Source: Halioglobus japonicus (GTDB lineage: Bacteria > Pseudomonadota > Gammaproteobacteria > Pseudomonadales > Halieaceae). Taken from it: 64,000 nucleotides of DNA. The position numbers and the translations under genes were made by a program. Positions 21,062-31,842 of the stretch are shown here, piece by piece. The DNA lies in the NCBI GenBank assembly GCA_902705825.1, contig CACSIL010000051.1, positions 279,675 to 343,674 of the forward strand. Reading direction: 5' to 3'. The notes beneath the pieces are model-generated. The model saw only the letters and a list, made by a program, of their open reading frames with translations, had not been told where the DNA came from and ran no database searches. Numbering within the stretch: the stretch's first letter is position 1; the number at the start of each line of letters is the position of its first letter.

Positions 21062-21097
21062 TGGCTTACTGTGCCCAAAGTTAGCGAGCGGGGCAAA

Positions 21098-21290
21098 CTA
21101 ATCCTCAGCGCTGAGCTTTTCAAGTCGCTCATCATCCAGAGCAAGGATAGCGAGTTGCTGCATCGCCAATGCCTCGTCAATGGCCAGGGACGCCTCGTAA
21201 TGAGTCAACGCTATATCTGTCTCCCCAGCCGCAGCCGGATGTTAGCGAGCCTGCTCTGAGAGACCGAGAGATTGCGCGGCATCCCTATCA
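21098..21290 (-). pseudogene. Frameshifted C-terminal remnant of a TPR protein
   Basis: Reading minus-strand codons back from the TAG at 21098-21100 gives a 46-residue fragment. Its core reads ETDIALTHYEASLAIDEAL, a good tetratricopeptide second helix, and it ends LEKLSAED. In the -1 frame just upstream the strand reads RLANIRLRLG, the first helix of the same repeat, so one indel near 21222-21226 joins them into a full TPR. The in-frame TAA upstream confirms decay. It lies 37 bases upstream of the SRAP start and looks like what is left of a larger gene at the edge of the accessory region. Confidence 0.5.
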
Positions 21291-21450
21291 GCTAAATATG
21301 CAATACAGAGAACCTGTACACAGCCCTAGCTTCATTTTGAGAAGCTGCAACGGATCTGAAGCAGGCTCTCTCACCGTGGTATTGGTAAAGACACCGGGGT
21401 TAGAGGGCGACTCAGGAAGAGCTAAGCCCCTTCTTTGCGTACCCACCAGT

Positions 21451-21479
21451 TTGATGGTAGCTTGATCGAGCCCATTATA
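21451..21479 (+). promoter_or_regulatory. Candidate promoter of the SIR2-TIR / nSTAND pair
   Basis: TTGATG (21451-21456), a 17-base spacer and ATTATA (21474-21479) form a sigma70-like pair 25 bases before the ATG at 21504. A second option uses TATAAG at 21476-21481. The rest of 21291-21450 contains no gene I can support; short frames there do not resemble proteins I know. Confidence 0.3.
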
Positions 21480-21503
21480 AGAAATGGAATTCAGCTGGAA
21501 TTT

Positions 21504-22910
21504 ATGGAAAGTATCGAAACAAGAAGGCAAGAAAAGTTTTGGAACCAACTGGTTAACATCATTTCCAGAAAAGATGTGGTGCCGGTGATTGGTGAAGACC
21601 TTTTAATTTTTGACGAGTCTTCAGGGGCGTTTGTGTACGATGAATTAGCCAAACGCTATGCCGAATTTGCCGAAATCACACTTTGCCTTGACCAAGACTG
21701 CGCACTGAGTGCCACTGTTCGAAATCATCCAGACTTCAATCTAAATCCACATGATATTTCACAAGAAATCGGTGAGGAATTTGAAGTCCTCAATCCGCCC
21801 ATTCCCAGTGCTATAAGACAACTCGCCAAAATTCGAGATTTCAATCTATTTGTCACAACGTCTTTCGATGACCTGCTAGAAAAAGCACTAAATGAAGAAC
21901 GATTCAACGGTGAAAAAAAGACACGTATCATTAGTTACTCGCCAAAAAAAATACCTTCAGATGATGAAATTGGTGATGCTCTTAGTAGTGGCTTCCCCGT
22001 TGTATTTCAATTATTTGGGAGCTATAAAAACCCCCTGAACTTTGCCCTGACCGAAGGAGACAAGCTGGAATACTTCCATGCACTACATTCCAGTGAGCAC
22101 AGCCCCAAAGCGATTTTAAATGAGCTATATAACCGTCCATTACTGCTCATTGGCAACAAGTTTCCCGATTGGTTGACCAGAACATTTTTGAGACTGACAA
22201 GAAAAACCTCGCTGGATAATCGCGAAGTGCCCAAACAGTACTTGTCCGGCTCTGAGGCTAAAAGCCCGACATTGAGCTATTTCCTAGAACACTTTACTGC
22301 GAACACCGAAGTTGTCAAAGACTACTCGCCGGCTGACTTTACTGAACGCTTGGCCGAGAAATGGCATTTAAAAACACAGCAATCAACTGAGCATCACGAC
22401 TCATCTCAGGTGTCCATTAAACATCGGGATGCACTGTATAAACCACCACCACCCAGCTCTGTTTTTATCAGCTATGCCGCCACCAAACTAGATGGCAGCG
22501 AGTCACCGGATAAAGCTATTGCTATTCAATTACGCAATCGATTGATGGACGCTGGCGTCAATGCCTGGATGGATATTGATGAATTGAACGCAGGCGATGA
22601 CTACGCCAGGAAAATTCACCGATTTATTAGCAACTGCGGTCTCTTTGTCCCTATCATCTCTCCCATAACCGATTCCAGAGAAGATGGCTTCTTTCGGCGA
22701 GAATGGCACTGGGCAACTGAGAGACTAATGAATTTTGCAGGCGCAAACAGACGCTTTATTGTTCCCATCATCGATGGCGGACTCGACCCATATGCATCCC
22801 TCGTACCTGAAGAATTCAAAAATTTGCACTTCTATAAATGGGATGAAGCCTCATTCGACAAACTCGTAAATGACATCGTTTCCATTTACCAGCGAGACGT
22901 AGCCCAATAA
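21504..22910 (+). CDS. SIR2-like / TIR two-domain conflict protein
   Basis: A 468-aa protein. Residues ~14-300 have the layout of a divergent SIR2-like Rossmann domain: VVPVIGEDL (25-33), LFVTTSFDDLLEKAL (115-129) and VFQLFGS (167-173). The usual TTN catalytic Asn is Ser120, and the usual LHG His is Phe171, so NADase activity of this half is doubtful. Residues ~319-450 are a TIR domain (VFISYA; FFRREWHWA), with the likely catalytic Glu at 400 kept, so the TIR could still cleave NAD or make a signal. An upstream TTG frame is rejected; ATG 21504 starts at a natural helix. Codon use is AT-richer than neighbours. The nSTAND gene follows after 22 bases. Confidence 0.82.
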   Translation: MESIETRRQEKFWNQLVNIISRKDVVPVIGEDLLIFDESSGAFVYDELAKRYAEFAEITLCLDQDCALSATVRNHPDFNLNPHDISQEIGEEFEVLNPPIPSAIRQLAKIRDFNLFVTTSFDDLLEKALNEERFNGEKKTRIISYSPKKIPSDDEIGDALSSGFPVVFQLFGSYKNPLNFALTEGDKLEYFHALHSSEHSPKAILNELYNRPLLLIGNKFPDWLTRTFLRLTRKTSLDNREVPKQYLSGSEAKSPTLSYFLEHFTANTEVVKDYSPADFTERLAEKWHLKTQQSTEHHDSSQVSIKHRDALYKPPPPSSVFISYAATKLDGSESPDKAIAIQLRNRLMDAGVNAWMDIDELNAGDDYARKIHRFISNCGLFVPIISPITDSREDGFFRREWHWATERLMNFAGANRRFIVPIIDGGLDPYASLVPEEFKNLHFYKWDEASFDKLVNDIVSIYQRDVAQ

Positions 22911-22932
22911 ATATAGTATTTGGAATATCTGC

Positions 22933-25900
22933 ATGGATGACACCGCCACTGACAAGTTGACTCTGGACGAAGAAAACCCCTGGCCAGGGATGACTGCTTT
23001 CTCAGAATCCAATTCAGCGTTTTTCTTTGGCCGATCCAAAGAAATTGACACCCTCTACAACAAGGTAGCCAGAAACGTCCTAACAGTTCTTTTTGGTAAA
23101 TCAGGACTTGGTAAAAGCTCGATACTACAGGCAGGACTATCTCCCACTTTACTTCAGAACCAATTTGTTCCAGTACATATCCGACTGAATCATTTTGAGG
23201 ATACTCTCCCGCTAGAAGACCAAGTAGAAGTATTTCTTGAAGACACAATCAAAAAATACGGGATTGATGCCCCAAAACCGATACGAGAAGAAACCTTATG
23301 GGAGTACTTCCACAAGATAGGGAACGATTGGTGGAGTACAAACAATGAGCTTCTTAAACCCGTTCTTATATTTGATCAGTTCGAAGAGATCATTACGGCA
23401 GGCCAAGAAAATGCCGTTCGTGCACAGCGTTGTGCACAGTTTCTCGAAGAACTGGAAGACCTCGTTGAAAACCGTCCTCCCGAAGCATTACTGAAACGAT
23501 TTAGTCAGGAGAAAGGTCTCGCAAAAAACTACTCTTTGGACAGAATTGATTATCGAATTGTCATCACCCTAAGAGAAGATTATCTGGCGGACCTGGAGAG
23601 TCTGCGAGAACGCTTGAGAACGATAATGTCAAATCGCGTCCGCATCTTACCTTTGACTGAAAACCAGGCGCTCGAAGTTGTTCTAAAGCCAGGCAAAAAC
23701 ATTGTTGACGTGAACGTTGCCAAAGAGCTCGTAAACTTTGTGGCGGGACAATCCGCTGCCAATTTTGTTGCAAGAGACGGCACACAAAACAAGTATGTTG
23801 AACCAGCCTTACTATGCGTGATTCTAAGGGAGCTAAATAATCAGAGACTGGCGGCTGGTGAAGAAAAAATCTCTTCTCAATTGATAGCAAAAAAACAACC
23901 CGAAGCAATAATGTTCGAGTTCTATAAGAATGGGTTAGAAGGGCTGTCCAGAGAAGTAAGAGATTTTATCGAGGAACAGCTATTAACTGCATCGGGAAGC
24001 AGAAACCGAGTCTCTGAAGACGACGCCATTCAGAGATTCAAGATTACTGAGAAAGATATAGCAACCCTAGTAGACCGGCGCATCATTCAAAGGGAGCGAG
24101 TAGGTAATAGTACTTGGCTGGAATTAAGCCATGATACGTTAACACCTGTTGTGAAATCGTTCGCTGAAACCAGTGTTCGTCGCCGCAAGATAAAAACTCG
24201 TGTTGCGCGAGCAACTATTGCTGCGGGTTTTATCCTGGTGATGCTGGCTGGATCACTGTACGTTCAGTTAGAAATCAGAGAACAGCAAACCCTGGAAGCC
24301 GCCGGATTGGCCGTCAACTTGGCGAATCAAATCAGCGAAAGCCAAACGATATCAACCCAAGTCAGACAAGAATTGACCGATACACTTGAACGCAATCTTC
24401 AGAATCACATCGAAAAGGCACCAGACTCAAATCTAGTTCGTATCAAATATATTCGATTTCAACTACTATTATCTGAATTCTTCTATGATAGGCAGCTTTA
24501 TGGCGAGTTCGAAAAAGTGCTCGAAAAAGCTGAAAGATCCTATAAGGAAATTCATCCAAGAAAAACGCCCGAAGCTGAAATCACTGAATTGTCAATTCTT
24601 TTTAGTCTCGGAAGTACTAAGAGAGCGATATTGCGGGAACAATTTGATCTAGCGGAGCGCACAATTGCGACAGCGAAGACAGCTATTAGAAATTCTGGAC
24701 AACGCGATACAAATATTCAGTACCAAATCCTGGATTTAGAGTTCGACTATTTATTCGCCAGCATCTTGGCCCATCGCTACAACATGACAGATGCAAGATC
24801 TGCTTATGACCTGTTGGAAAATCGTATTTCCGATACGATAGAAAGCTACTCTACTCGTTTCAAAGATTCCAATATTGATATCGACAAGAAAACACTCAGC
24901 AGAACAATAAGAACGCTCTATCAATTACTGTTTTCAACTATAGAGGGGATTAACTCAACCGCAGATTTCGTATCAACCAATAAAGTCGAGCTAGCATCTC
25001 GCTATCGGAAATTTTTGGACAATGCAAAGCCCTACTTTGAAGCTGAACATCAACCGATTTGGATTTCATTTTCAGCCAACCTTGATCTCATGACAGCGCA
25101 TAAGGCATTAAAGGAACATCAAGTGACCAGTGCTCGTTCGTCGTATGATTCAAGTGTGCAAAAAATGGTCAGGCTCGTCAAAGAATACCCAGACCGAATT
25201 AGTTTCCAACGTAGATTAATGGACAGTCTCCACTCTCGCATGGACCTTACTTTGGAGCGGGATGAGAAGCAAGCTGATGAAGACCTTATAACCATTCAAA
25301 AGCTAGCCAAAAGCGTTTTAGAGCAGGCTGACCACCCTAATACATATTGTCGATCGGTAATGTATTCCGGAATGATGGCCATGCGTTTTGAAAGCATAAA
25401 AGACGAGCCTCACATAGACAAGTTATATGAAGAAGTTCAGATACTAGCTGATCATTGTAAAAACAAATTGCAGCTGCCATTGCTAACAAACAACTTCAAC
25501 TTCTGGAACCATTTTTACAAAGTCAAGGCAGAACTAGAAAGCGACAATATCACCGAATCAATGCAAAGCATCCAAGAGACCCTTGCCGAAATTGATAAGA
25601 GCATAGAGATTTATGCCCAAAATGGTGCATCTAGAGATTTTCTCCTCAACAGAAAGAACACCAGATATATGACCTCCAGTAGTTTCGTAGAATCTTTGGA
25701 AGATGTTGAAGCACTGAACTATATAAACGAGGCGATAGCGGTACAAGAATCCCTCGACGATCAATCGTTCCATCGCGAGTCTGGAAACTATACTTGGTTG
25801 TTGACCAACAAATCGAAGCTTTTCGAAAGGCAAGGAAATACAGAGGAAGCGATCAACAGCTATAGCGATACGGTCCGTTTTGTCCTAGAGAACTTTGACG

Positions 25901-27573
25901 AGAATAGTAAAACCCTTCTTACTAATGCAATATGGGCACTTTCTCAACAAGCTAGACTCACTTTGTCCGAAGCAAATATCACGCAACTTCAGGAACTAGC
26001 TGAGCACACGGATTTGTTGAACCAACGTCTTAGGAAAATCGAACTAGCTAAAAAAAGTGAGATACGGGCTGGTTTGGATCAATTCTGGAAGTACTTTCAA
26101 AATCAGTTTAGATTGGCTTCAAACAACACTCAACCAAATGGTGAAGAGAAACTCGTTATCGAAAGAATTGATACAAGTATCAACGATTTCATGACATTTA
26201 TCACGCAGACAGCTCAGTCATCTCAAAGTGACTTCATATCGGTTGACCTTCATAGCCTTACATTACCCGAAGTTACGAAGAATGAAGAAGGGCTGTATTC
26301 ATCCAAGTACTCAGTTGGATGGGTTACCAACTCTGTCTACCCACTTGCCAATTCGATAACAGTGATGGGGCGGGATCAAAAAGTAAATCCGCATTTACGA
26401 CTTCCCAGTCTAGCTTTGCAAAGAGCAAGGTATAGCAGGCTACCGTTCTATGCTCACTGCTCATACGTTGTAACCGAACACTTAAGTCAAAATGGAGAAA
26501 CCATTCAGCGATATGTATTGGAGAATAATCAGGATGAAAAACTGTTCCAATTGGATGGCAAATCTGACCCAATCCATAAGGCTAACAAAGCCTGTGGATT
26601 TGACTTAACTACAATTGAGAATGCTGCTGCATACCTACGCTTTTTCGGCACATTTGTCCATGCTAGTGCAGGGGCTTTCAAACTGGTTGAGTCAATTGAT
26701 GAACTTGATTGGCTGGAGGGGGCGACGCAGAGTGACAAGGCTCCAGTTCAGAATTTGATACGTCCTGTTTATTTGTGGAAGCACGACAAAAGTAACAACT
26801 GGCATGCAACGGGCACAGTTCAGTATGGAGACAACTTATTTTACGCAAAATTTATCATCCAAAGGGATGGCATGGTATCGATGGATGACGCCCTTCCAAT
26901 TGCAGAAAACTTACTGATTAACAGTTTTTCTATTGCACTAAACAGTGGAAGAACGTCTAATTTTTTGAATGGCATAGCGCTGCCCTCACTGCGTAAATAC
27001 AGCGGCGAATTTGACGTTACTACCTATTTTCCTGGTTTTAATCAGCCCGGCTTCTCGTTACAGAATTTCAGCCACAATGAATTTTTGCTCGCCAGTGATA
27101 TATACAAAGTACGACCGGATTTACCTGATCGCTTCAACGACTATTTGGAACTGTTTTCTAGCTGGCTGGCAAGCGCCAAGCCTCAGGACACGTCAGATAT
27201 ATTGCAAAGGCGCAGGGAGTCTTTTATAGCTCTCTCTGAGCATATCAGCGAACAAAGCACTGTAAATTATGTCTCTCTGTCATTTTACCAATTGTTTTCA
27301 GAGCAGTATGAGGCCGCTCTAGACAGCGCTCAAAGTGCCATTGCTATAGATGACACTGAGTATCCTGCACACATGAATATGGCTCATGCGCTAATGTTGT
27401 TAGATCGGACTGTAGAGGCTCGAGAAATATACGAGCGCTTTAATGGTCAAGAAATTCATACTGAAGATTGGGGTTATTACGTCAACGACGACTTTGACAA
27501 ACTAGAGAGTGTCGGCATTACTCACCCCTTAATGAGAGAAGTCCGGGGGCTTTTAAACACAAGCACGGAATGA
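22933..27573 (+). CDS. Giant nSTAND1-type NTPase with membrane helix and TPR-like C-terminus
   Basis: A 1546-aa protein. It opens with the nSTAND1 signature NPWPGMTAF...FFFGRSKEI, then Walker A GKSGLGKSS (55-63), Walker B VLIFDQFEE (~144), and a winged-helix segment ending LSHDTLTPVV. A single membrane helix follows at ~428-447 (AAGFILVMLAGSLYV). About 1100 residues of mostly helical sequence come next, with a TPR-like pair near the end (SEQYEAALDSAQSAIAI, ~1455-1490). Between 1110 and 1400 is a more beta-rich segment with several Trp/Tyr. Known role of STAND NTPases: sensor-triggered oligomeric switches. Here the C-terminus would be the sensor and the partner SIR2-TIR the effector; this is inference. 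It is probably cotranscribed with that gene. Confidence 0.83.
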   Translation: MDDTATDKLTLDEENPWPGMTAFSESNSAFFFGRSKEIDTLYNKVARNVLTVLFGKSGLGKSSILQAGLSPTLLQNQFVPVHIRLNHFEDTLPLEDQVEVFLEDTIKKYGIDAPKPIREETLWEYFHKIGNDWWSTNNELLKPVLIFDQFEEIITAGQENAVRAQRCAQFLEELEDLVENRPPEALLKRFSQEKGLAKNYSLDRIDYRIVITLREDYLADLESLRERLRTIMSNRVRILPLTENQALEVVLKPGKNIVDVNVAKELVNFVAGQSAANFVARDGTQNKYVEPALLCVILRELNNQRLAAGEEKISSQLIAKKQPEAIMFEFYKNGLEGLSREVRDFIEEQLLTASGSRNRVSEDDAIQRFKITEKDIATLVDRRIIQRERVGNSTWLELSHDTLTPVVKSFAETSVRRRKIKTRVARATIAAGFILVMLAGSLYVQLEIREQQTLEAAGLAVNLANQISESQTISTQVRQELTDTLERNLQNHIEKAPDSNLVRIKYIRFQLLLSEFFYDRQLYGEFEKVLEKAERSYKEIHPRKTPEAEITELSILFSLGSTKRAILREQFDLAERTIATAKTAIRNSGQRDTNIQYQILDLEFDYLFASILAHRYNMTDARSAYDLLENRISDTIESYSTRFKDSNIDIDKKTLSRTIRTLYQLLFSTIEGINSTADFVSTNKVELASRYRKFLDNAKPYFEAEHQPIWISFSANLDLMTAHKALKEHQVTSARSSYDSSVQKMVRLVKEYPDRISFQRRLMDSLHSRMDLTLERDEKQADEDLITIQKLAKSVLEQADHPNTYCRSVMYSGMMAMRFESIKDEPHIDKLYEEVQILADHCKNKLQLPLLTNNFNFWNHFYKVKAELESDNITESMQSIQETLAEIDKSIEIYAQNGASRDFLLNRKNTRYMTSSSFVESLEDVEALNYINEAIAVQESLDDQSFHRESGNYTWLLTNKSKLFERQGNTEEAINSYSDTVRFVLENFDENSKTLLTNAIWALSQQARLTLSEANITQLQELAEHTDLLNQRLRKIELAKKSEIRAGLDQFWKYFQNQFRLASNNTQPNGEEKLVIERIDTSINDFMTFITQTAQSSQSDFISVDLHSLTLPEVTKNEEGLYSSKYSVGWVTNSVYPLANSITVMGRDQKVNPHLRLPSLALQRARYSRLPFYAHCSYVVTEHLSQNGETIQRYVLENNQDEKLFQLDGKSDPIHKANKACGFDLTTIENAAAYLRFFGTFVHASAGAFKLVESIDELDWLEGATQSDKAPVQNLIRPVYLWKHDKSNNWHATGTVQYGDNLFYAKFIIQRDGMVSMDDALPIAENLLINSFSIALNSGRTSNFLNGIALPSLRKYSGEFDVTTYFPGFNQPGFSLQNFSHNEFLLASDIYKVRPDLPDRFNDYLELFSSWLASAKPQDTSDILQRRRESFIALSEHISEQSTVNYVSLSFYQLFSEQYEAALDSAQSAIAIDDTEYPAHMNMAHALMLLDRTVEAREIYERFNGQEIHTEDWGYYVNDDFDKLESVGITHPLMREVRGLLNTSTE

Positions 27574-27806
27574 TCCCGGCGCGAAATTCGCTCGCTCTTT
27601 ACGCAATTTTGTGCAACTTACAGGGTTAAAGGCGACCCACATGGAGATCTTTAAAAATATACTGGTCTTTTTTGTGCCAACGTCCACGCGTTGTCTTCCG
27701 CCACCTCCTGGACGATTACAAAATGGCCTTAAGACGCTGGAAATAGAGGAGCCAACTCTAACTGCGAAGTCATGGGAACAAAAAAGCGTTTTCCAATGGG
27801 AACCAG
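27574..27806. other. 233-base gap between the two convergent gene pairs
   Basis: This gap lies between the ends of the nSTAND gene (+) and the SLOG gene (-). No intact gene is supported. One + frame after a TAA reads ~38 codons ending DDYKMALRRWK at a TAG near 27750, rich in Arg and Trp. It could be the tail of a lost gene or chance. No intrinsic terminator with a U-run was seen for either neighbour. Confidence 0.35.
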
Positions 27807-29783
27807 CTATGCAGGCTCTGCCTCTTTGACTTCGTAAATCTCCAGCCAGTCTGCCACTTCTTTAGTTGTCATTGAGGCGACTTCATGTAGCTGATCAGAC
27901 AATTGTTGCGATGAAAGACTTCCTGGATTCTCTCGCAACCGTTGCGCTTGCATAGACAAATAAGAACCCATGGTTAGTGATCGCTGTGATGAGATATCGA
28001 ACTCGGCATGATTGCTCACAACAAAGCTTGCAGTTGCAAGAATCGGAAATACGGCAGCCAAGACACCCAGGATAGTGGATACATCAATGAGATCAAGATG
28101 GATAGAAAATGCAATTTTCACCAGCTTTAGCAGTACAACAATCACCGTCGCGTAAAATAGATACAAGCTCCAGTTCGCCAATCGCTCTCCAATTCGTTTC
28201 ATTCTCAGCGTATTCTTCTGGTGGTACTTTAATTGACCATTAATCCAGGTCTTTGCTGCAAATTCACTCACTTGGATAATTTCACTTTGCGATAGTACGC
28301 AGTAATTGAAACCAACATGCCTGATCAATATTTCACTATATATATAGAGCCAAGCACGACCAACGCCATTGTGGCCAATTATGTCTCTGCCCAAATACTC
28401 CTTGGTATCTCGCAAGTTCACCAAAGAATAGGTTTTTCCTAGCCCTATCAAGTAAAACATAGGGCGCAGGGATTCACTTAGAAATCGATATTCTAACCAG
28501 CGGCCATGGTAGTCATATTTATGATCCCTCCAATACAGCCAGTAAATACAAGCCAGAAAGACAAGCTTTACAGAGACCAGTGCTGTCAGAATACTTGGGG
28601 GGATACCCTTCCACAATGACAGTACTGCCAGAATCAGTGCGGCTGTTCCCAAAAAAAAGATTGATAAGAAAGTACTACGGTGCAGATCGCTGTAATAGTT
28701 GGCCAATCTATCCGCTCTCAGATAGGCCGCATAAAAATTATGTGTACTGGGGTTTTCTATCTTCGTATCGACAGACACCTCGTCGTTATCGTTAGATTTT
28801 TTTGGTGCCAAAAACTCTTTGAATCGACCAAAAAAGCTACTCAATATTCCTATATTCTGCGGATCCAGCTCGATCGGGCCGGAGTTATCAAAATCTATAA
28901 CACTTTCGTTATATCTCAGCTTTGAGCTGTCTCCATAACGCTCAAACCGTTCAGAGACAATCTCCCTTCGGGCTTCAACACTAGCAGAGTCAGCTTTATC
29001 CTGACCTGAAAATACGTCGTCAAACAACAGTAAACGACTTAGTTCGCTTTCAAGTCTCGTTTGTGAAAAATCACTCTTTGTAACAAGACGACCAAATTTT
29101 CCAGAGGTGAATATAGAGGTAGTTTGGTCAGTTGTAGAGATGTGAATCACCGGAACACCATTACTTATGGCGGCATTCACAGTTCCAGATGTCCCTTCCT
29201 GTGAATCATTTATCCCATTATAGACCGCAATCAGGATATCGCTGTGATCTACTAAAACGCTTCCGCACCTTCGATAGGCATCGTCTCTTTTCTCCGGATG
29301 CCCATCGAGCTCTAGAACGCGACATTCTGAGGAGCCATAGTTTCCTCGGCTTAGCACCTCATCAAACTCGTCGATCGTTCCATGCGAAGCATCTACAATA
29401 CTCCTAGTCGGAGCAAAGTCTTTGGCATATTCCTCTTTGGAAAAGGGCAATATAAAAGCTAGCTGGTAATCATCAAAATCGATCAACTCTTTGGCGATGC
29501 AGAGCCTATCAGCGCCCTCTGCAAGAGAGCTGGTAAAACGTATAACCGGCCCACAGCCCTTTCTATATAACATCGTCGCTTCAGGAGATGCAGAAAGACA
29601 AGAAGTAAAGCTATATATATTCTGATACAACGCTTTTAGCTGGGATTTTATCCACTGCAGTTGCTCAGGGTTTTCCGGCAAGCTCCTATGCCCTGCAACG
29701 CCTATGCGCAGTGTCATTGGCATTGAAGGGTCTGTAATGATGTCCTTGTAAATATCATTAACCAGATTCGAGTATTCGTTCAT
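27807..29783 (-). CDS. SLOG-domain protein with four C-terminal membrane helices (SLATT-like)
   Basis: A 658-aa protein. Residues ~24-210 match the SLOG nucleotide-binding Rossmann pattern: RIGVAGHRSL (26-35), FTSSLAEGADRL, LAFILPFSKEEYAKDF, and HSDILIAVYNG followed by EGTSGTV and GVPVIHIS. The C-terminal half has two hydrophobic helix pairs (FLSIFFLGTAALILAVLSLW with ILTALVSVKLVFLACIYW; then LYLFYATVIVVLLKLVK with LGVLAAVFPILATASFVV), each flanked by amphipathic helices (RWLEYRFLSESLR), like SLATT 2TM effectors. SLOG domains are proposed to bind or process nucleotide signals, and SLATT to act on the membrane. The RyR gene lies 52 bases upstream, probably in the same transcript. Confidence 0.82.
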   Translation of the reverse strand: MNEYSNLVNDIYKDIITDPSMPMTLRIGVAGHRSLPENPEQLQWIKSQLKALYQNIYSFTSCLSASPEATMLYRKGCGPVIRFTSSLAEGADRLCIAKELIDFDDYQLAFILPFSKEEYAKDFAPTRSIVDASHGTIDEFDEVLSRGNYGSSECRVLELDGHPEKRDDAYRRCGSVLVDHSDILIAVYNGINDSQEGTSGTVNAAISNGVPVIHISTTDQTTSIFTSGKFGRLVTKSDFSQTRLESELSRLLLFDDVFSGQDKADSASVEARREIVSERFERYGDSSKLRYNESVIDFDNSGPIELDPQNIGILSSFFGRFKEFLAPKKSNDNDEVSVDTKIENPSTHNFYAAYLRADRLANYYSDLHRSTFLSIFFLGTAALILAVLSLWKGIPPSILTALVSVKLVFLACIYWLYWRDHKYDYHGRWLEYRFLSESLRPMFYLIGLGKTYSLVNLRDTKEYLGRDIIGHNGVGRAWLYIYSEILIRHVGFNYCVLSQSEIIQVSEFAAKTWINGQLKYHQKNTLRMKRIGERLANWSLYLFYATVIVVLLKLVKIAFSIHLDLIDVSTILGVLAAVFPILATASFVVSNHAEFDISSQRSLTMGSYLSMQAQRLRENPGSLSSQQLSDQLHEVASMTTKEVADWLEIYEVKEAEPA

Positions 29784-29835
29784 ATCTCTCTTCTGCCAAC
29801 CCTCTCGCTTTTGACATTAAGCCCGTTAATCGATA

Positions 29836-31551
29836 CTAGGCCAGCTGCTTCAGTAGATTAACCAATTCTGGCAGGTGCCGAACGGCATCACGGTCTTTCT
29901 GTTTTTCAGCTTCGGAAAGCTGCTCCCAGGCAACAAGACTGGGCGAAAGCCTTCTCTCATTGTCCTTTTCTCCTTGTTGCAAGCGCCATCCATTTAACTC
30001 TTTCTCTGCCTTCCAGCGGGCGTGCTCCATACTGGCCACTCTCTCTATGCTTGCATCGTTTAGCGCTTCCTCAACCTCAGTTACGGTAGGAAACCTTTTT
30101 CCGGTTAATGATTGGCACTTTATGTACAAATGGTCTGCCTGATTGCGATTGGCATCCTTCAGATTTTCTGGCAACACGCTCCAATCGACCAAGGAACTAT
30201 TGGATAGCTGTGTATCACCCATTGCACGTTGCGAGTTCACATAGTTTTTGTGTATAGCGATGGCGAGAGAGTCCTGTTGTGAGTCAAAAACAGTATCGAA
30301 ACGGCAACTGTCACGCATTACTCTCACACAATGGATATTTGCACTGCTGCCGAACTGTTGTTCCAGCATACCAGGAATGACACTCTCTCCAGATTCACAA
30401 ACTATAATCGGACATTTCAGCTTTAGGTTTTCCAGCGCCTGGGTCCACGTGAGAATCTGCTCAGTACTTTCTGCATGGACATAAACCAGGTCGGGCTTTA
30501 CTTCGTGTAAAACCTCGTGAGAATGAGATGAATCGAGGATTCCCAGACTGGTATCGTAGGCAGATAACTCAAGGATGTTTGCTAGCGCAGGCTGCACACT
30601 GAGCAATCCTTCTAAATGCTTTGTAGCATCTGGCGAAACAAGTTTAACGTTAAGCGGGGCTGGCTGCCCATAATGGCCTATACAAGCAACGCGCAGGAGA
30701 ATTTCTTCAATGAGGCGACTATCCCCGACCAAAGCTATAGTAAACAATCTCGAACCCATAGCGTCTTGATCAAGCAGTTTATCGGGACCATAGTTATTTA
30801 AAAGCCAACGCGCTGCTAGCTGCTCATAGTTAATAATGCGGGCAGAGTAATTACTCGCATCAGTGGCAAATACCGGCTGTTGATACAAGACCGCTCCGAA
30901 CTCCCTATTAGCTATATGCACTGCGCAGTTTAGCATCGGCAATGACGTCTGTTTTTCTCGCTGCCTATAGCTGTAGTATGCAACTTCCAGATTTACGTGA
31001 TCGTAGCCTGTGACTGCTAAAAGGAAAGCCGCCTTTTTGAGATTGGCTTGATTTAGCCATGTACTGTCGCTGGAGTTGCCGATCAGAATATAGGCACCCA
31101 GGTTTTTTGCTCTACCAATAAATTTGTTCTGGGGGTTCGCTTCGATAACCACAACCGACGTTCCCGCCGCAATTATCGCCTCCAGTATTCGAATATTCAC
31201 TGAATCTAAACCGCAGATGATTGCGTGTCCTTGCAACCAGGAAATCCTCAGCCGGTGAAAATGGCCGCGCATAATGGCGGCAAAAGCTCTGAAAGCGGCA
31301 TAACTCAGACTGGCGGGTGCAAGCCATCTTGCGATTTCAAGTGTGACAGGTGCTCGGCCTGGATCAATGCTCGTTTCAAGGATGAAGAGCCCCACCGAGT
31401 TATAGAGCAGGTCAAATATGCTTGCTGGCTCAGCCAGATATTGGTAGTACTGGCTATAGCCTATAACGCCTAGCACCATAGCCATGACGATGCTAAAACC
31501 TATAAGAGTCCGTTCCAGTTTCGAGAAAATATTGACCTGTGAGTCCGACAT
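29836..31551 (-). CDS. Membrane-RCK-RyR domain protein
   Basis: A 571-aa protein. It has an N-terminal membrane helix (~13-35), a possible re-entrant pore-like segment (FDLLYNSVGLFILETS) and a further hydrophobic stretch. Next is a TrkA-N/RCK Rossmann domain starting GHAIICGLDSVN (~108) with VVVIEANPQ and IGNSSD, and a second Rossmann-like part (FTIALVGDSRLIEEIL). The last ~65 residues form an RyR domain (MEHARWKAEKELNGW; LSPSLVAWEQLSEAEKQKDR). The layout recalls a K+ channel with an RCK regulator, but no TVGYG filter is present and the NAD-binding GxGxxG is degenerate. RyR and RCK both suggest ligand sensing. AGGA precedes the ATG. Confidence 0.8.
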   Translation of the reverse strand: MSDSQVNIFSKLERTLIGFSIVMAMVLGVIGYSQYYQYLAEPASIFDLLYNSVGLFILETSIDPGRAPVTLEIARWLAPASLSYAAFRAFAAIMRGHFHRLRISWLQGHAIICGLDSVNIRILEAIIAAGTSVVVIEANPQNKFIGRAKNLGAYILIGNSSDSTWLNQANLKKAAFLLAVTGYDHVNLEVAYYSYRQREKQTSLPMLNCAVHIANREFGAVLYQQPVFATDASNYSARIINYEQLAARWLLNNYGPDKLLDQDAMGSRLFTIALVGDSRLIEEILLRVACIGHYGQPAPLNVKLVSPDATKHLEGLLSVQPALANILELSAYDTSLGILDSSHSHEVLHEVKPDLVYVHAESTEQILTWTQALENLKLKCPIIVCESGESVIPGMLEQQFGSSANIHCVRVMRDSCRFDTVFDSQQDSLAIAIHKNYVNSQRAMGDTQLSNSSLVDWSVLPENLKDANRNQADHLYIKCQSLTGKRFPTVTEVEEALNDASIERVASMEHARWKAEKELNGWRLQQGEKDNERRLSPSLVAWEQLSEAEKQKDRDAVRHLPELVNLLKQLA

Positions 31552-31842
31552 TGGATCCTATGTCTTTCTTATGATTGTGATTCTAGCGCCAGTTAATATC
31601 ATGATTGTTGCCCATTTTGCCCCTTGCATACAAGCTGGCTAGAACCTAGTCAGGGAGAATCGCCAATCCTTACAATACTGGATCAAAATGATACCGAACC
31701 GTATTACTCACTTTTTTCACGATGCAAGTCGAGGTCTGCCATAGTAGACCGAATACAGCTAGGGTGAACCAGCAAGAATGTATCCTTGCCTGTATCGGAC
31801 AAGCAGTAGTACCCTGTTTGATGTTTTTTCCGGGAGTTAACC
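31552..31842. other. Divergent intergenic region at the right edge of the accessory region
   Basis: The 291 bases between the RyR gene (-) and the DUF35 gene (+) must hold both promoters. No strong -35/-10 pair stands out. The segment is AT-rich on the RyR side and changes to core-like composition around 31700-31750. No tRNA, integrase or clear attachment repeat was found. An 8-base match (GTTTGATG) to the left edge is too short to count. Confidence 0.4.

Follow-up and report, generated by a model that had tools for sequence, protein, structure and literature searches.

In the available text of PMC11204291 and PMC12948488, Thoeris systems of types I and II are described as combining the TIR protein ThsB with ThsA, an effector of either SIR2-SLOG or transmembrane (TM)-macro architecture, and the former source reports that the SLOG domain of ThsA binds 3' cyclic ADP-ribose (3'cADPR). 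Pore effectors of the SLATT/SLOG type were predicted by Burroughs and Aravind, with TIR genes located beside two-TM (2TM) SLATT proteins considered to be nucleotide-gated (excerpts of PMC7159879 and PMC9503650). According to the portions available of PMC11025887 and PMC12627627, SLOG-like domains of TRPM channels bind ADP-ribose (ADPR) derivatives, and adenine nucleotides are stacked on a Trp in the Repeat12 cleft of RyR3. In addition, phage RyR domains were reported to bind or cleave the TIR signals 2'cADPR and 3'cADPR (PMC13232231, a 2026 preprint); the phage protein RyDEP hydrolyses these signals, whereas no such activity was seen for the remaining phage homologues assayed, and 6/8 bound the signals. 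Here, we analyze a block of four genes, designated A to D, in a 64,000-nucleotide stretch of Halioglobus japonicus DNA (assembly GCA_902705825.1, contig CACSIL010000051.1, positions 279,675 to 343,674; hereafter the window). With a confidence somewhat above even, we read A-D as a Thoeris-like, membrane-centred TIR signalling system that was horizontally acquired as one cassette. The features discussed are the following.

21097-31723: insert of about 10,627 bp, holding only A-D and about 400 bp besides, delimited by blastn of the flanks against relatives
21504-22910, plus strand: gene A, 468 residues, SIR2 (degenerate, judged by its residues)-TIR
22461-22868, plus strand: TIR domain of A, with Glu E400 kept
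22933-27573, plus strand: gene B, nSTAND1-TM-TPR-like
24202-24258, plus strand: predicted TM of B (residues 424-442), from hydropathy only
27807-29783, minus strand: gene C, SLOG-4TM
29004-29717, minus strand: SLOG-like domain of C (about residues 23-260), motif read by eye
29836-31551, minus strand: gene D, 571 residues, 2TM-RCK-RyR
29842-30168, minus strand: RyR domain of D, placed by alignment with phage DyoEdafos gp78
31270-31518, minus strand: 2TM pore-like region of D (residues 12-94)

The four open reading frames (ORFs) are intact and form two convergent pairs with intergenic gaps of 22, 233 and 52 bp; the coordinates, strands and pairing listed in an earlier note on this DNA agree with the ORF positions. 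That note also described an AT-richer block between core genes. Indeed, the insert has a GC content of 44.1% vs 56.7% and 57.9% in its two 10-kb flanks, and comparison with relatives showed it to be a clean insertion between the genes for SRAP and DUF35-thiolase. Ten same-genus genomes, taken from 15 others that matched the flanking thiolase, were compared at this site, and A-D were absent from all of them; SRAP and DUF35 were direct neighbours in six, and the remaining four gave no SRAP match. For the two nearest relatives (L076 and L084), blastn alignments broke at 21081 and 21096 and picked up again at 31724. No integrase or transposase was present among the insert ORFs in the ORF list of the window, no tRNA was found in the window, and no convincing repeats were seen at the insert ends. 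The sole candidate, a 27-nt inverted pair (21141-21167 and 31763-31789) that is 70% complementary and lies partly outside the insert, looks like a chance match. Promoter and terminator scans of the block were uninformative. The block was probably acquired horizontally as one cassette. At the left edge of the insert (21097-21250, minus strand) we observed a stop-broken frame that, read by eye, is similar to the end part of a gene with TPRs and may be left over from cargo carried earlier. A viral origin was rejected: a pattern-limited scan of viral contigs found no relative of C, and full-length C and D had no match in phage records at E 1e-5.

Gene D contains the RCK and RyR domains that had been noted from its translation, and both were above the Pfam cut-off (TrkA_N, 2e-10; RyR, PF02026, 5e-9, 36.6 bits vs a curated cut-off of 27.4). 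We compared its RyR domain with the RyDEP reference, phage DyoEdafos gp78, whose residue numbering agrees with PMC13232231. That preprint names four ligand residues of RyDEP, H75, W78, H100 and D117. Three are kept in D, where H510, W513 and D553 correspond to H75, W78 and D117, and S536 occupies the position of H100. Over 17 rows, RyDEP included, H75 was kept in 17, W78 in 17, D117 in 16 and H100 in 13; Ser at the H100 position was found in the four window-type D proteins (the window, L002, L003 and L004), with His in the other 13/17. The second TM of D is below the hydropathy threshold and was placed from the alignment and a structural model. A TVGYG-type K+ selectivity filter between the TMs was absent in all eight 2TM members aligned, which rules out D as an ordinary K+ channel. 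The model of D, built from four sequences, has a predicted local distance difference test score (pLDDT) of 63.2; top fold matches of this low-confidence model include GsuK (5.5e-5), RyR3 848-1055 (2.5e-4) and TrkA (4.8e-4).

RyR domains also occur in other settings. Of 50,697 phage records, 297, many of them annotated as hypothetical, had a match (E up to 1) to the RyR part of a short protein (L075), and it is possible from these matches that the phage RyR pool is a wide set of TIR-signal sponges. In one locus (L072:7041-9560), RyR is fused to a RelA/SpoT-type domain; RyR may also be paired with other nucleotide signals.

Gene A was matched by TIR_2 (6e-14, residues 320-455) and SIR2_2 (7e-13, residues 115-251), both above the Pfam curated cut-offs. 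The column of E400 holds Glu in 10/10 aligned TIR rows, and we take this residue to be the catalytic TIR Glu. At the positions that we presume, after ThsA, to be those of the SIR2 catalytic Asn and His, A has S120 and F171, and the three A-type rows have Ser/Thr and Phe. Judged by these residues, the SIR2 half is degenerate, with its active site lost, and both the TIR domain and the degenerate SIR2 proposed earlier are borne out; A as a ThsA-like SIR2 NADase is ruled out by the loss of the active-site residues. No further TIR_2 match was found in the genome of the window, which is 93% complete. A is 52% identical to its counterpart in locus L046 and 30% to that in L004.

The nSTAND1 ATPase of gene B was likewise recognized correctly: Pfam gives 1.5e-29 and 104 bits vs a cut-off of 27.1 over residues 16-273, with the P-loop GKSGLGKSS. 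The C-terminal half, about 1,100 residues, is TPR-like, although Pfam TPR models remained sub-threshold. Six Lys/Arg (K/R) residues precede the predicted TM and one follows it, and from hydropathy and this bias the C-terminal half may be located outside the cytoplasm, a placement that the earlier note had not anticipated. A full-length homologue of B, with 34% identity over 1,618 columns, is present in L046. We also examined 20 TIR/STAND partner proteins, a subset of the partners found; in 17, the TIR/STAND module is followed by a TM flanked by more K/R on the N-terminal than on the C-terminal side, and the domains behind the TM included CHASE2 (L004) and PG_binding_1 (L092). No TM was predicted in the other three (two TIR proteins of L047 and one of L049). 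Based on hydropathy, we infer that many of these TIR/STAND sensors face the periplasm.

Gene C itself has no Pfam match above the cut-off. In an alignment of its family (A1, 11 rows, E up to 1), DUF4231 was matched by 11/11 rows, YpsA (SLOG family) by 5/11 and SLATT_1 by 4/11, with best E-values of 4e-7 (L014), 0.002 and 0.008, respectively. DUF4231 in the C protein of L014 and SLATT_1 in that of L048 are above the cut-off; SLOG models are sub-threshold in C, and in L048 and L062. C has four predicted TM segments, and its C-terminal tail is near-invariant in alignments A1 and A4 (E-ADWLEIYEVKE). An AlphaFold model of C (pLDDT 79.7; predicted TM-score, pTM, 0.84) gave no Foldseek match at E 0.001 or better; TRPM5 and TRPM2 ranked first (E 0.025-0.05, TM-scores up to 0.18), closely followed by ABC transporters with similar E-values. 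A comparison of the C profile with PDB had a best E of 0.19, mostly to antibody chains. The earlier description of C as SLOG with SLATT-like helices, and with it the label SLOG-4TM, holds for the family (Pfam matches of relatives, four TM segments) but is weak, and sub-threshold for SLOG, for the window sequence alone. In Kangiellaceae relatives (L009-L011), the four TM segments were kept, and in the first search SLOG was weak in L009 and unmatched in L010 and L011; TPR-kinase genes lie nearby in L009 and L011, and L009 also has a TPR-S gene close by.

Distribution of C was assessed by profile searches, which were positive in 7/369 class genomes and 15/398 phylum genomes, giving 19 genomes including the window; a first genome scan with C had yielded 10 relatives. 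Among 96 relatives searched, C occurred in two, the window's own genome and one with a marginal match (E 9.5e-4). A TIR domain was present within 5 kb of C in 9/19 genomes. Apart from the window this is 8/18, vs 0.17 expected (exact tail 3e-13), with TIR densities taken from the same genomes, genome sizes rounded and genomes treated as independent; one of the eight TIR neighbours (G814) is below the Pfam cut-off. Two weak C members, L062 and L063 (E 2e-7 and 1e-10), were counted, G479 as lacking a TIR neighbour and G813 as having one, and three genomes with C on contigs shorter than 7 kb (G391, G445 and G684) were counted as lacking TIR despite their truncated neighbourhoods. Among the ten C genomes without TIR, RyR was found in the cluster in G463, G508 and G710, a Pfam-supported DUF4062 gene in G758 and a patatin gene in G445; the C neighbourhoods of G479, G588 and G689 showed no TIR, RyR, DUF4062 or patatin.

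All four families, whose co-occurrence the earlier note had proposed to count, meet again in a Nitrosomonas locus (L004), where A and B are divergent from D and C in a layout different from that of the window and where B is split over two frames and ends in a CHASE2 domain. However, the modules are also found separately. Two other Nitrosomonas loci (L002 and L003) have D-C without A-B; a TIR-Sel1 gene lies about 4.5 kb from D in L002, and no TIR was detected in the stretch examined of L003. In G415 (L046), C is beside full-length A and B; on a Caballeronia plasmid, C is accompanied by an nSTAND1-WD40 gene and a gene annotated as TIR. Because C was the query that led to L004 and L046, only the RyR-alone and A-alone searches described below are unbiased for the other genes.

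Several further neighbours of C were observed. In 4/4 loci of Alteromonas and Salinimonas (L005-L008), C is divergent beside an nSTAND1-TPR gene, without D. The N-terminal 190 residues of these STAND proteins look like DUF4062 by eye, but this was not confirmed: DUF4062 was not among the Pfam matches at E 0.1, and comparing profiles with the two Pfam-supported DUF4062 proteins gave a probability of 0.6%. The domain is therefore left unassigned. In L053, L056, L057 and L048, C is beside a patatin-like phospholipase, with an RyR gene in 3/4, possibly a lipase effector branch. In addition, a DUF4062-biotinyl/lipoyl fusion (L059:5083-8073) lies beside a relative of C, with a glycine cleavage P-protein gene nearby.

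The RyR-alone search was positive in 8/398 phylum and 3/274 class genomes (10 including the window). C was in the same cluster as RyR in 4/8 of the phylum genomes (3/7 without the window). Assuming that both searches drew the same 398 genomes, this co-presence has a hypergeometric probability of 0.0011, or 0.045 when collapsed by genus (G463 and G508 belong to the same genus). Half of the RyR genomes (5/10) had RCK and RyR in one protein, namely the window, G320, G567, G518 and G710; RCK of the G567 protein was identified by a local profile only. Outside the window, a TIR, STAND or C gene was nearby in 4/4. In G320 (L092), a TIR-TM-PG_binding_1 gene is about 0.2 kb upstream of the RCK-RyR gene on the same strand, and profiles found no other partner in the 19.9-kb stretch, making it a bare pair of TIR and 2TM-RCK-RyR. 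G567 (L073) has a TIR-nSTAND1-WD40 gene 2.2 kb from RCK-RyR, G518 (L074, at a contig end) has an nSTAND1-FGE gene 3.2 kb upstream, and in G710 (L053) RCK-RyR is adjacent to C and patatin. Counted by gene, TIR is thus near RCK-RyR in 2/4 (G320, 0.2 kb; G567, 2.2 kb); counted by domain, it is within 5 kb in 1/4 (chance 0.037) and within 7 kb in 2/4 (chance 9e-4). The other five RyR genomes comprise G463 and G508 (RyR, patatin and C), G625 (RelA/SpoT-RyR), and G492 and G168 (short RyR genes). The short protein of G168 (L093) is a 122-residue stand-alone RyR about 3 kb from a TIR-2TM gene and may represent the phage sponge in a host-encoded or prophage-borne form.

A search with A alone (398 genomes, E 1e-15) detected three further full-length loci, two in G415 and one in G459, and a TIR-only match in G546; an nSTAND1 gene adjoins A in all three full-length loci. 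Near the G546 TIR gene (L088), we observed a channel-like RCK gene without RyR about 3.8 kb away. Within the stretches examined, TIR and RCK-RyR occur without C in L092 and L073, and C occurs elsewhere with other TIR proteins. A-D are not an obligate four-gene unit.

The two halves of the block appear to have different histories, because their nearest relatives differ: A and B are closest to L046, and C and D to Nitrosomonas. The window C groups with three Nitrosomonas C proteins (tree support 99/98) and is 44% identical to C of L004 and 25% to that of L046. Probably, judging from these relationships, the four-gene set came together more than once, or at least the A-B half was swapped. Such repeated assembly or swapping would be hard to explain otherwise, and it therefore suggests that the parts work together.

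We propose the following order of events. B, a STAND switch that would be anchored in the inner membrane, may detect an insult and switch on A. The TIR domain of A, judged by its family and its kept Glu, would then make an ADPR-type signal from NAD+, and the SIR2 half, with its catalytic residues lost, probably binds NAD/ADPR or serves as a scaffold. The signal would be read in the membrane by the SLOG-like domain of C and by the RyR and RCK domains of D, and both proteins might then depolarise or permeabilise the membrane, leading to growth arrest or cell death. In this scheme we infer the order of action, signal chemistry, pore opening and defence role; its basis is gene content, the insert, recurrence with TIR genes, residue conservation and folds. 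We favour it because the clean insert holds only A-D while C and RCK-RyR recur near TIR/STAND genes, because all four families recur in L004 and related sets in L046 and on the Caballeronia plasmid, because the set probably came together more than once, because D keeps H510, W513 and D553 and phage RyR binds or cleaves 2'/3'cADPR, because the fold of D resembles GsuK and TrkA, which are ligand-gated RCK proteins, and because no TIR_2 match other than A was found in the window's genome. The earlier note had arrived at a similar model, with the TIR product read by SLOG and/or RCK-RyR proteins; neighbourhoods, RyR residues and phage RyR biochemistry (PMC13232231) support it, but the four genes are not obligate partners.

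Several observations weigh against this proposal. The structural model of D is poor (pLDDT 63, four sequences), its pore lacks the K+ filter, and in its clade the phosphate-binding His is replaced by Ser. SLOG of C is sub-threshold and looks degraded in Kangiellaceae. No TIR is located within 5 kb in 10/18 of the other C genomes, and in G567 a distance of 6.7 kb separates the RCK-RyR gene from the TIR domain proper. TIRs occur in 7/7 of the RCK-RyR genomes checked, with up to ten per genome, so that their mere presence carries little weight. Of the three further full-length A loci, one has C and none has D (20-kb stretches), and the modules also stand apart (A-B without C-D in L086 and L087; D-C without A-B in L002 and L003).

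A more specific idea, which we consider less likely than not, is that bacteria have TIR-gated RyR channels, in which a cADPR-type messenger would open the 2TM-RCK-RyR protein and SLOG-4TM would be a second receptor; L092 would be the minimal form. If true, such channels would be the prokaryotic equivalent of two responses, that of RyR to cADPR and that of TRPM2 to ADPR, and the RyR sponges of phages would serve as counter-measures that may themselves descend from receptors of this kind.

Other explanations were considered. The separate occurrence of A-B in L086 and L087 and of D-C in L002 and L003, and the different nearest relatives of the two halves, would also fit two independent systems within one insertion, with A-B as a complete TIR-STAND system that kills the cell by NAD depletion and D-C as a membrane module responding to another signal. 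We consider this unlikely, as L004 again unites all four families, the window's genome has no TIR_2 match besides A, and blind searches tie C and RCK-RyR each to TIR or STAND genes. Retention in D of the RyDEP catalytic pair H75 and D117 (as H510 and D553) raises a different alternative, that D is an off-switch whose RyR domain clears the TIR signal or buffers it, as RyDEP does by hydrolysis (PMC13232231), and guards the host from leaky A, leaving C as the sole effector. This is improbable: the phosphate-binding His of RyDEP is Ser in D and three close relatives, fusion to 2TM-RCK suggests gating, the only profile-found partner of the G320 TIR gene in 19.9 kb is RCK-RyR, and signal degradation was not seen with any other phage homologue tested, even though 6/8 bound the signals (PMC13232231). 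A role in envelope-stress or developmental signalling rather than anti-phage defence, with periplasm-facing sensors and a regulated change of membrane potential as output, would agree with the TM and K/R pattern of 17/20 TIR/STAND partners and with CHASE2 in L004 and PG_binding_1 in L092, but appears quite improbable given that the sporadic, insertion-borne distribution and effector-like neighbours (patatin) suit conflict systems, that 3/20 partners lack a TM and that the topology is a hydropathy guess. Finally, chance clustering of unrelated genes is ruled out by the clean insert and the TIR distance test.

Compared with known systems, D resembles the RCK-gated K+ channels GsuK and MthK in having 2TM and RCK; GsuK was its top fold match, with entries titled as bound to ADP or NAD, and MthK was also listed. 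In contrast to these channels, D has no K+ selectivity filter and has an added RyR domain. The block also recalls animal RyR Repeat12 and TRPM2, as D has an RyR domain and C a SLOG-like domain on a membrane protein (with weak, non-significant TRPM fold matches); however, there is no sign of a Ca2+ pore, and homology of whole proteins is not claimed. A direct response of animal ryanodine receptors to cADPR is a long-standing question. It was reopened by the 2026 RyDEP preprint, in which phage RyR domains bind TIR-made cADPR isomers (PMC13232231). D has the same PF02026/Repeat12 domain as RyDEP and keeps its H, W and D ligand residues. The phage proteins terminate signalling, acting as sponges or, in one case, as a glycosidase, whereas D is an RCK protein of the membrane whose gene accompanies a TIR gene, and Ser replaces its phosphate His. 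In the loci described here, RyR domains belong to the cell rather than to the phage, in the neighbourhood of TIR genes and as part of a membrane protein resembling a channel, and the two-gene pair of TIR and RCK-RyR offers a small, cheap test of the cADPR-RyR question.

The predictions of Burroughs and Aravind, as far as the available text goes, share with our block TIR genes located next to predicted nucleotide-gated membrane effectors, but C differs in that one protein joins SLOG to a pair of 2TM units. RyR is not mentioned in the available text of PMC7159879 and PMC9503650, as checked by word search, and in the literature searched, whose coverage was incomplete, we found no bacterial operon described as combining a TIR gene with a gene for an RyR-domain protein. 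PADLOC 2.0 (2023 library) has no system matching the block, in line with the earlier note, which had recognized no named defence system; among its profiles, B was matched only by mad8 (0.009), C and D by none, and ThsA hit A alone, weakly (3e-6, residues 6-223).

The closest comparison is with Thoeris. Both have TIR, SIR2 and SLOG domains, with the TIR Glu kept in the block; in both, the TIR product is read by a nucleotide-binding domain of an effector, which in type II is a membrane protein, although in the block this is predicted only. On the other hand, in the block the SIR2 domain is joined to TIR in one protein and lacks an active site, Asn and His being replaced by Ser120 and Phe171; SLOG resides on a 4TM protein; STAND and 2TM-RCK-RyR proteins are added; and none of A-D is an effector of the ThsA kind, with SIR2-SLOG or TM-macro architecture. 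If our proposal is true, TIR immunity, for which the available sources describe SIR2-SLOG and TM-macro effectors, would extend to RCK-RyR and SLOG-4TM membrane effectors. The block is Thoeris-like in logic and not Thoeris by membership, and we rate it as a variant of TIR-based immunity, of which the RCK-RyR half is the surprising part.

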